Shown in pieces: positions 61,466 through 64,000 of a stretch of DNA of 64,000 nucleotides. Each line of letters opens with the position of its first letter. The stretch's first letter is position 1. The notes beneath the pieces were generated by a model. The model searched no databases and was not told where the DNA came from. It was given only the letters and a program-made list of their open reading frames with translations. The translations under genes and the position numbers were made by a program. Source of the DNA: Promethearchaeota archaeon (GTDB taxonomy: Archaea; Asgardarchaeota; Lokiarchaeia; Sigyniarchaeales; SOKP01); assembly GCA_029838195.1 (NCBI GenBank), contig JALGVJ010000004.1:1-64000 (forward strand). Direction: 5' to 3'.

Positions 61466-62104
61466 TTATATTTTTCTTCTCTTCCAACATTCTTCGATCA
61501 TCCATTTAAGCTTTCTAATATTGATTTTCTTTAATGCCGAGAATTCCAAATAGGGAACGACTCCTTTTTTTTCGAAATCATGGTCATTCAAGTGAATTAA
61601 TTGAATGCCATGCTCTCTGGCTTGCTCGATAAAAAAATTAAGTACACGTACGGAATCTCTTTTAGAAAGTTTATCAATTTTATTAAAAAGGATTAAATGA
61701 GGGATGTGAAATTCAGAGATAAAATTAATCAGTTCAAAACTCAATGGGATGGTATCTTTCCTCATTAAATTATACTTTACCAATTCATCCTCGATTCTCA
61801 GTACATTTATCACGATGAGTGCGAGAAAATATTTTGCATGATGCTTCTCCACGTGAACTACGATTTGTCTCTTTACATGTTCTTCTCTTCTTTTACTCGA
61901 CGATTTCATGTAGCCGAATCCTGGTAAATCAACAATTTGATATTTCAAGCCAGGTTGTGTAATTGGGCGTATTAATAAAGTGCTACCAGGCTTTTTTCCC
62001 GCTTTTCCCTTAAATTTACTCGGATGAGGTAATAATAATCTCGTTATGGAGCTTTTACCCACGTTAGAATTTCCAATAATGAGAAGAGAAGGTTTTTCTT
62101 TCAT
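61466..62104 (-). CDS. EngB/YihA-like TrmE-Era-EngA-YihA-Septin-like GTPase
   Basis: A 212-residue GTPase. G1 is GNSNVGKSS, a basic KAGKKPGST segment carries the G2 Thr, G3 is DLPGFGYM, G4 NKID and the G5 region FSALKK. This set is typical of EngB, which assists large-subunit assembly in bacteria and has archaeal homologues. A basic C-terminus ends the protein. A repeat protein gene lies 57 bases upstream on the same strand. Confidence 0.88.
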   Translation of the reverse strand: MKEKPSLLIIGNSNVGKSSITRLLLPHPSKFKGKAGKKPGSTLLIRPITQPGLKYQIVDLPGFGYMKSSSKRREEHVKRQIVVHVEKHHAKYFLALIVINVLRIEDELVKYNLMRKDTIPLSFELINFISEFHIPHLILFNKIDKLSKRDSVRVLNFFIEQAREHGIQLIHLNDHDFEKKGVVPYLEFSALKKINIRKLKWMIEECWKRRKI

Positions 62105-62161: not shown

Positions 62162-63001
62162 CTAAATAAAATCAGAGAAATCCTCTTGCAAAAATTCCTT
62201 GAACATCTTTTTTTTCTCATCTTCTTTTATAACCGGTCTTGTATCAATCGGTTCTCCAACCTTTTTTAAAATGTCTTTTAAAAGTTCCACGTCCACATTA
62301 ATTTTAAATTTGCCTCCCAACATGTATCGTATTACCCGTACGCCATTAATCTCTAATTTCAAGAGATGACCCAAACCAAAATAAAATTTATGCGATTCAA
62401 TGGGATCAATAGGACTTTTACTTACTTTTTCTTTCAACATTTCATACAATAACTCCTTACTCGCCACGTGATCTTCTACATTAAAAGTCAAGTAATAAAG
62501 CGCATGATAATAAATCTTGTTTCTTTTATTTTTTAAATATTTCAAGAATTGTTCTGGTGTCCATTCTTCTTTTTCTACGCTTTTTTTCCTTTTTATGAGC
62601 TCATCTTCAATTTTCTTTTCGATGAGAGTTTTTGCACCATTTTTGATGCTTACGCTCTTTTCTGCCGTTTCGTTCTCCATCATTTCTCCATATTTTACCA
62701 ATTCAATTGCTTCTTTCATTTCTCTTAACTCATCTAGATCCATTTTTCCCAAATCAGAAAAATCTGCTATTAAATCGGTTTGATATCCCCTTTTGGCTTC
62801 TTGATCCCGTTTAATTGCATCTATTCCATCATTTCGGGGCTTTCCATTCATTTTTTTGACTTGTTCTATTGCTTCTTGTATTTCCTGAATTTCTTCGATG
62901 TCCAATTCTTCCAGATCAGAGAAGTCCGTTTTAAGTTGCTCCATCTCGTTGATATATTTTTTATAATCGCTTTCTTCATGATCTTCTTCATCTTCATTCA
63001 T
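62162..63001 (-). CDS. acidic protein with repeated DFSDL motifs
   Basis: A 279-residue soluble protein of unknown family. Two copies of a helical repeat stand out: residues 26-49 and 80-103, each DFSDL-x2-(L/M)D followed by an E-rich helix ending EAIExVK. A third partial copy (EDFSDF) is at the extreme C-terminus. Between repeat 2 and the tail, residues 145-255 form a helical domain (WTPEQFLKYLKNKR, YYHALYYLTF, FYFGLGHLLKL). The DFSDL segments could be docking peptides for a partner. It probably shares a transcript with the EngB-like gene. Confidence 0.65.
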   Translation of the reverse strand: MNEDEEDHEESDYKKYINEMEQLKTDFSDLEELDIEEIQEIQEAIEQVKKMNGKPRNDGIDAIKRDQEAKRGYQTDLIADFSDLGKMDLDELREMKEAIELVKYGEMMENETAEKSVSIKNGAKTLIEKKIEDELIKRKKSVEKEEWTPEQFLKYLKNKRNKIYYHALYYLTFNVEDHVASKELLYEMLKEKVSKSPIDPIESHKFYFGLGHLLKLEINGVRVIRYMLGGKFKINVDVELLKDILKKVGEPIDTRPVIKEDEKKKMFKEFLQEDFSDFI

Positions 63002-63187: not shown

Positions 63188-64000
63188 TCAAGTCCTCTTG
63201 TATATGAATCGTTCCCAACTCGATTTGTTGGGGAGTTCCTCCTTCATGCCCTTTCTCTTGCGTATTTCAAATATTAGATCCTTTTCAATATTAGCAGGAA
63301 CTTTTTCAAATCCTTTAAATTCATAACCGAAGAATGCTCTACCTTGCGTGGTGCCTCTAATTTCATCTGCAATTCCAATCAATTCAGCAGCAGGAAGCTC
63401 TCCTTTTACTCTAACAAATTCTCCTTCAGGAATCACGTCAATAACTTGCCCTCGATGTTTATTTATGGTTGAAATAACACCACTTTCAGTACCTTGGGGA
63501 GTTTTAACATCTATAATTTGTATGGGTTCATATAAATGAGGATCTGCATCAAGCATCGCTAAAGAAAGAGCGGAATACGTCATACTGGCAGTTTGAGCAA
63601 ATTGCGTGTGGCGAGGATCTTCGTGAATTGTTAAATCCGTGAACACGGCTTTTATTCCCATGGCTGGTTCCCGTGCTAAAATGCACTCTTCCGTCCAACT
63701 TCGAAAGGCACTCACCAAATCGTTCTTAATTCGATCGAATCGTTGTAATCCGGAAGCTCCATTAACCAAGGCATTTCCTTTATACACGTCAACGATTCTT
63801 CTAGCTTCTTTCATATCCCATCCCGCTTCTTTATTAAGAATTTGGGCACGTTCTTTTTCATTCATCAAATCCGTGATCTTTCCCGTTTCAATTAATTTTT
63901 CTGCAACGGGATCAAGGGGTTCTACGTATAAGAGAATACGATTATGCGCATTAGAAGATTTTGTATAAAATTCTCGGCTTTTCTTGGTAACTTTTTCCCG
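63188..64000 (-). CDS. translation elongation factor 2, C-terminal part, with altered diphthamide loop (partial)
   Basis: The frame is open to the right edge (270 codons seen). It encodes domains IV-V of EF-2: NAHNRILLYVEPLDP, then GWDMKEARRIVDVYKGNALVNGASG, then TPQGTESGVISTINKHRGQVIDV and EIRGTTQGRAFFGYEF. The C-terminus KRKGMKEELP resembles eukaryotic EF-2. The tip loop, normally DxxLHADAIHRGGGQ with the diphthamide His, here reads DLTIHEDPRHTQFAQ (63593-63637): the His position is kept but the RGGGQ part is gone. Lokiarchaea and some Heimdall-group archaea are reported to have EF-2 paralogues with lost diphthamide sites, and this could be one. Without the G domain I cannot say whether it is the main EF-2. 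Confidence 0.93.
   Translation of the reverse strand, partial: REKVTKKSREFYTKSSNAHNRILLYVEPLDPVAEKLIETGKITDLMNEKERAQILNKEAGWDMKEARRIVDVYKGNALVNGASGLQRFDRIKNDLVSAFRSWTEECILAREPAMGIKAVFTDLTIHEDPRHTQFAQTASMTYSALSLAMLDADPHLYEPIQIIDVKTPQGTESGVISTINKHRGQVIDVIPEGEFVRVKGELPAAELIGIADEIRGTTQGRAFFGYEFKGFEKVPANIEKDLIFEIRKRKGMKEELPNKSSWERFIYKRT

Follow-up and report, generated by a model that had tools for sequence, protein, structure and literature searches.

The window examined here, meaning the whole stretch of DNA that was analysed (64,000 nt of contig JALGVJ010000004.1, assembly GCA_029838195.1), ends inside a gene for elongation factor 2 (EF-2) whose domain IV tip loop departs from the canonical sequence at the site that bears diphthamide. 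Diphthamide is a costly modification that is kept in many archaea and eukaryotes, and the reason for keeping it is debated. The question raised by this locus is whether the gene encodes a main EF-2 that works without diphthamide or an EF-2 paralogue, both of which were offered in the original prediction. The genome containing the window was a 4.5 Mb bin of 94 contigs, with 96.6% completeness and 7.9% contamination, and its nearest relatives with names were Candidatus Lokiarchaeota. The features of the gene were as follows.

63188..64000, minus strand: C-terminal 270 of the 750 codons of the probable main (window-type) EF-2, by ORF translation; the gene extends past the window to 65440 of this contig
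63593..63625, minus strand: domain IV tip loop HEDPRHTQFAQ, residues 606-616, by translation; compared in 171 genomes
63608..63610, minus strand: codon of His611, the diphthamide-bearing position in canonical EF-2; invariant in 157/157 genomes read without a dph1/2 match
63605..63607, minus strand: codon of Thr612, replacing the Arg of canonical HRG; Thr in 156/157 genomes read without a dph1/2 match

The minus-strand frame at 63188-64000 translated to an EF-2 C-terminus of 270 aa containing FTDLTIHEDPRHTQFAQTASM. When the gene was followed beyond position 64000, as had been advised, it was recovered whole and intact (C22:63188-65440), encoding 750 aa from an ATG start with no internal stops. 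Pfam matches to GTP_EFTU, EFG_III, EFG_IV and EFG_C followed the EF-G/EF-2 domain order, including domain IV; domain II had no Pfam match, yet the alignment to 5h7j spanned it. TIGR00490 (aEF-2 equivalog) was the best family in its library at 639.9 bits, below its curated cut-off of 738.45, and both EF-2 copies of the window genome scored under that cut-off. The loop was located in domain IV as predicted, at 63593-63625 on the minus strand; the predicted span of 63593-63637 includes four extra codons before it. Both histidines and the aspartate of the loop were retained, and His611 was followed by Thr at +1, Gln at +2 and Phe at +3, so that the sequence reads HEDPRHTQFAQ and not the HxDxxHRG of diphthamide-bearing EF-2. 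In an AlphaFold model built from relatives, the first sequence of which was 82% identical to the window protein with an identical loop, the mean pLDDT was 71, blocks of residues 591-630 reached 86-93, and the loop lay between a strand and a helix.

A eukaryote-like C-terminus had also been proposed. The protein ends in FIYKRT, the same as related main EF-2s, which rules such a tail out; the five Hodarchaeal-type copies examined end in DKL. With an HT loop and a FIYKRT end, versus an HRG loop and a DKL end, the protein is not of the eukaryote type.

Upstream of the window-type EF-2 were two ORFs followed by a 611-aa ORF that we take to be aIF5B, with ORFs beyond it that are presumably UvrA- and UvrB-like. 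Downstream, a small GTPase of the MMR_HSR1 kind was encoded at 61466-62104 (minus strand) and a 279-aa protein at 62162-63001 (minus strand); the latter had no Pfam match and showed two copies of an acidic stretch (DFSDL...) close to its N-terminus.

The window genome was searched for the diphthamide enzymes, whose presence the original prediction had named as a deciding point. Profiles PF01866 (Dph1/2), TIGR00522 (Dph5) and PF01902 (Dph6) gave no match there at E 0.001, and each was positive in four archaeal control genomes. For PF01866, zero candidates were seen in the window genome even under a loose first look. The PF01902 search covered the window genome and the archaeal controls. Across 227 Asgard genomes, PF01866 matched in 21 and TIGR00522 scored above its cut-off in 24, with none of either in the window's family, f1; one f1 genome (G113) had a single Dph5 match below the TIGR00522 cut-off. 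The dph1/2, dph5 and dph6 genes that accompany a diphthamide-bearing EF-2 were thus not found in the window genome. Nor was a second EF-2 with a canonical loop found in it, at 96.6% completeness. Such a gene may lie in the missing 3.4%, against which stands the finding that no f1 genome has a PF01866 match.

To compare the tip loop across the phylum, 172 of the 227 genomes were attempted and 171 were read; the EF-2 fragment of G068 stopped before the loop. This census covered 14 of the 21 PF01866-positive genomes, G045-G049, G052 and G165 being left out (G165 had no EF-2 match), and G159, a bin with 9% contamination and dph genes, was counted among the 14. Genomes G044 and G050, which are Hodarchaeal-type with no PF01866 match, fell outside the census and might be exceptions to the split that it revealed. 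All 14 genomes with dph1/2 carried HxDxxHRG. Among the 157 without a dph1/2 match, the loop was HxDxxHT in 156 and HxDxxHI in one (G033). Positions 1, 3 and 6 (H, D and H) were invariant in these 157, and positions 2, 8, 9 and 10 differed between families. Position 8 was occupied by G (98 genomes), Q (30), S (19), R (6), K (2) or T (2); in other words, 59/157 loops carried a residue other than Gly two places after the modified His, with Arg in six. The residue beside the target His changes according to whether the enzymes are present, and such a large set of relatives shows which residues may stand in for diphthamide. On the gene tree the 156 HT genomes go back to a single origin, and their number is a gauge of breadth, not of independent events.

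The full loop peptide of the window was read in 7/171 genomes, encoded by five different DNA versions, and every one of its 11 codons showed synonymous change. A sequencing error, which had been named as a possible refutation, was therefore very unlikely and was ruled out as the source of the loop. Judged from this counted synonymous variation, the loop looks to be under purifying selection, preserved rather than broken. The peptide had been regarded as distinct, which did not hold, as it was shared within this group of seven and the HxDxxHT pattern by nearly all genomes without dph1/2. The retention of the His was borne out; the loss of RGGG was correct for the window and too broad for the group, where the Arg was replaced in 157/157 and the next Gly was kept in 98.

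Outside the Hodarchaeal-type families, dph1/2, Dph5 and an EF-2 with an HRG loop were observed together in f19 (G072, G074 and G075), f20 (G077-G079) and f8 (G001), at loci L168-L173 and L176. Bins G159, from the window's order, and G165, from f23, contained dph genes and had 9% and 12% contamination, respectively. The EF-2 of G159 grouped tightly with those of f20, so this bin may be mixed. In G009 (L325), which has no dph1/2 match and whose EF-2 has an HT loop, Dph5 matched over the cut-off; this match may be contamination or a relic.

The only other EF-2-like gene found in the window genome was the following.

C54:46610-48799: second EF-2-like gene, 729 aa, sharing 22% identity with the C-terminal portion encoded in the window

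At the loop site, its protein aligned without gaps as NDIDEERLFTE, with no histidine and with the conserved loop residues gone. It lacked a Pfam match to EFG_IV (domain IV), which the window-type protein has. With its loop residues lost and its grouping with other loop-lost copies, the C54 gene belongs to EF-2p, the loop-lost copy. The window gene does not, as it keeps both the loop and EFG_IV and lies outside the loop-lost group in the tree; it has the characteristics of the main EF-2 in dph-lacking Asgard archaea, namely no dph genes found, an altered loop with the His, and grouping with such copies. On one side of the C54 gene were ORFs that we presume to be V-type ATPase-like.

The distribution of the two copies was then compared within f1. 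The loop-lost copy was not found in 8/8 relatives of 92-99% completeness (G105, G111, G112, G114, G135, G136, G155 and G156), which were chosen because the match strengths of an earlier search hinted that it was absent; in these, the best match to the second copy was the window-type gene, at 33-35% identity. The window-type gene was not found in G131 (100% complete), G125 (94%), G128 (83%) and G098 (74%), which showed the loop-lost copy only (L331-L334). Missing contigs could explain these four relatives, which represent either a binning gap or a real loss. By hand count, among 42 f1 members at least 90% complete, the loop-lost copy was not found in nine and the window-type copy in two; the nine absences rest on match strengths, with eight of them confirmed by search. 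This pattern leans towards the window-type copy being the indispensable one, and we infer that EF-2p does some other job. The loop-lost genes of G149 (L064), G101 and G102 each contained a single in-frame TAG and no insert, which may reflect an error, decay or recoding.

For an EF-2 tree, which the original prediction had advised, 79 sequences were collected, of which 54 entered a first, quick tree. A second tree of 39 rows was built with the LG+C20 mixture and a careful search, after 15 rows were dropped (eight loop-lost, mostly long-branched, and seven window-type). Loop columns were kept in both alignments, and the non-Asgard EF-2s numbered only four. In the 39-row tree, the window-type copies formed one clade (100/100) on a stem of 0.73. 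The loop-lost copies formed a group (91/91) that joined the canonical f19/f20 copies, with G159, and the Hodarchaeal-type copies (99/98). The canonical f8 copy was placed apart, and the non-Asgard 8hl1 adjoined the larger canonical/loop-lost group (94/92). The 54-row tree agreed, except that the long-branched loop-lost L237 fell outside. In AU tests, placing the window-type and loop-lost copies together was rejected (p 0.0085), which excludes the two as sisters from one recent duplication. Placing the window-type copies with the canonical f19/f20/G159 copies was also rejected (p 0.0083), and a single clade of all Asgard copies was not (p 0.051). The long stem of the window-type clade could distort its placement. 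The term paralogue applies to the window gene in a deeper sense, its divergent clade being separate from the canonical Asgard EF-2s sampled. The simplest reading of the sequences would be that the loop of an old copy was rewritten a single time and that the canonical copy lost its loop residues where dph is absent. Trees of archaea and eukaryotes that use EF-2 as a marker would combine paralogues if the two Asgard copies were mixed.

Between the two options originally offered, the evidence favours a main EF-2 that functions without diphthamide: no dph match and no second EF-2 with a standard loop were found, and the one other EF-2-like gene has lost the conserved loop residues. On sequence evidence, the product of the window gene is probably the main translocase on the ribosomes of a Lokiarchaeon unable to make diphthamide (probability about 0.74). 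During translocation, the tip of domain IV would enter the decoding site carrying a plain, unmodified histidine. The Thr, Gln and Phe at +1, +2 and +3 would hold the loop in a shape suited to use without the modification, and a loop so held could still push the decoding bases aside while stabilising the pairing of codon and anticodon.

The roles of the two copies could instead be reversed, with the C54 gene as the main translocase and the window gene as a specialised side copy. Such an arrangement is consistent with the tree, in which the loop-lost copy falls with canonical EF-2s, with its higher identity to the canonical copies of G077/G078 (46%, compared to 41-42% for the window copy), and with the four f1 members, one rated 100% complete, that show the loop-lost copy only. 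We consider it unlikely, however, as the supposed main factor would have neither an EFG_IV match nor any conserved loop residue, was not found in 8/8 near-complete relatives tested that have the window-type copy, and was likewise not found in nine of the 42 more complete f1 members, compared to two for the window-type copy; its lineage also evolves faster, with end branches of 0.17-2.16 versus 0.08-0.57 in the 54-row tree. Another explanation is that the His on the HT loop is still modified, either by enzymes too divergent to be matched or by other chemistry. The His is more strictly conserved than most neighbouring positions (157/157), and the Dph5 match of G009 in an HT-loop genome would suit this explanation. 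Against it, all three enzyme profiles were without a match in the window genome and the residue beside the target His differs exactly by the presence of dph1/2, making continued modification improbable.

The variation between families at positions 2, 8, 9 and 10 might suggest that the loop became dispensable once diphthamide was lost and then decayed neutrally, but positions 1, 3 and 6 do not vary and all but one of the 157 genomes have Thr at position 7. The window's group varies synonymously at every loop codon with the peptide unchanged, and the loop region of the second copy illustrates what real loss of constraint looks like; decay is accordingly given very little weight. A more elaborate form of the preferred reading, in which the main EF-2 works without diphthamide, is put forward tentatively and is perhaps a one-in-three prospect: HxDxxHT would be a genetically encoded replacement for diphthamide that arose in an ancient EF-2 copy, one that diverged before the Asgard radiation or early in its course. 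That copy would have displaced the canonical translocase, after which dph would have been lost and the canonical copy would have become EF-2p. The loop sequence alone would do the job of the modified His, through the Thr at +1 and, in the window's group, through a bulkier residue at +2, where the vertebrate eEF2 G717R substitution lies.

In many relatives, the region of an EF-2-type gene that encodes the GTP-binding part was interrupted by an insert of 29-31 nt that brought in a stop or broke the frame. The window's own EF-2 had no such insert. The inserts lay at five sites, and at two of these the position differed by 4-6 nt from locus to locus.

Between TDSD and DEEQ, or 6 nt before: L008, L009, L011, L012, L013, L099, L109, L110, L113, L122, L120
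Between AH and IDHGK: L108, L158, L120
Between DHG and KTT: L221
Between RRG and ITIK: L180, L181
Between DTPGH[V] and DFTG (site DTPGHV, DFTG): L171-L173, L175, L240

The inserts occurred in window-type, canonical and loop-lost copies, and the second insert of L120 was recognised by eye. Each locus was scored for bulge-helix-bulge geometry, defined as a central helix of 4 bp, a pair of 3-nt bulges with the cut behind the second base of each, and a distal helix of at least three pairs. In 18/21 loci tested, the top junction was the one that restored the conserved protein. For the remaining three (L171, L172 and L221), one restoring junction had the 4-bp central helix with a distal helix of 0-2 pairs. 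The background frequency of this geometry was 493/313,176 position-and-length combinations (0.16%) over 20 loci, true sites included. Splicing endonuclease genes (PF01974) were present in 14/14 genomes checked, with at least two genes in 12. The inserts in these 21 related EF-2-type genes fit archaeal bulge-helix-bulge introns, as far as sequence and predicted pairing indicate. A window-type EF-2 fragment at G113:C42:15-1055 (L328) had three stops and ~30 extra nt, which are probably another such insert. In 2009, the authors of the archaeal cbf5 intron study stated that cbf5 was the only gene with confirmed pre-mRNA splicing, introns elsewhere being predicted (PMC2738675), and intron-rich tRNA genes in Asgard archaea have been described, according to the portion of the report available (PMC11291895). 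No report of EF-2 introns was found in the literature, as judged from titles and visible abstracts.

The window EF-2 aligned over nearly its full length with the canonical archaeal EF-2 structures 5h7j, 6q2d, 8hl1 and 9ou7, the loops of which read HEDNVHRGPAQ, HEDAVHRGPAQ, HEDPAHRGPAQ and HEDAIHRGPAQ, compared to HEDPRHTQFAQ in the window. The Hodarchaeal-type EF-2s (f15/f16, a label assigned from sequence) are likewise Asgard EF-2s with a His at the same place, but the five examined have an HRG loop, a DKL end and genomes with dph1/2, none of which applies to the window gene. In yeast eEF2, the accessible text of one study reports that the modified His699 packs against a mimic of the codon-anticodon pair, holding back the decoding bases, and that the factor without diphthamide is wild-type-like in ordinary tripeptide synthesis and defective on a viral IRES (PMC4861600). 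The modified His of mammalian eEF2 is His715, as given in the available part of PMC7591051. Dph1-null mouse cells show reduced proliferation, and the vertebrate eEF2 G717R variant is described as a mimic of diphthamide-modified eEF2 that largely rescues DPH1-knockout mice, in the portion of the report accessible (PMC11053169). The altered site of G717R is two residues after the modified His, the position of Gln in the window and of Arg in 6/157 loops. It differs in being a vertebrate mutant, and Gly is retained at that position in 98/157 genomes without a dph1/2 match; the parallel is a resemblance that may serve as a lead.

Eme 2023 (PMC10307638), with reference to Narrowe 2018, states that many archaea without diphthamide genes have a further EF-2 paralogue from which key residues are missing, and also that among Asgard archaea only Hodarchaeales have dph and a single canonical EF-2. 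The last statement is in apparent conflict with the dph genes and HRG loops of f19, f20 and f8. As cited there, diphthamide loss in this group and EF-2s of this kind are already known in print. The HT signature itself was not encountered in literature on archaeal or Asgard diphthamide, judged from titles and abstract openings, and neither the HT/HRG split nor the grouping of loop-lost with canonical copies appears in the available account of Narrowe 2018 given by Eme 2023 (PMC10307638). The strict split is possibly an addition to published work, as is, possibly, the topology in which window-type copies form one divergent clade and loop-lost copies fall with canonical ones. The system itself matches the Asgard EF-2s of Narrowe 2018 (Genome Biol Evol), as summarised in the accessible text of PMC10307638, in having no dph and two EF-2-type genes, one without the modification residues, and to this system the window adds one more genome.
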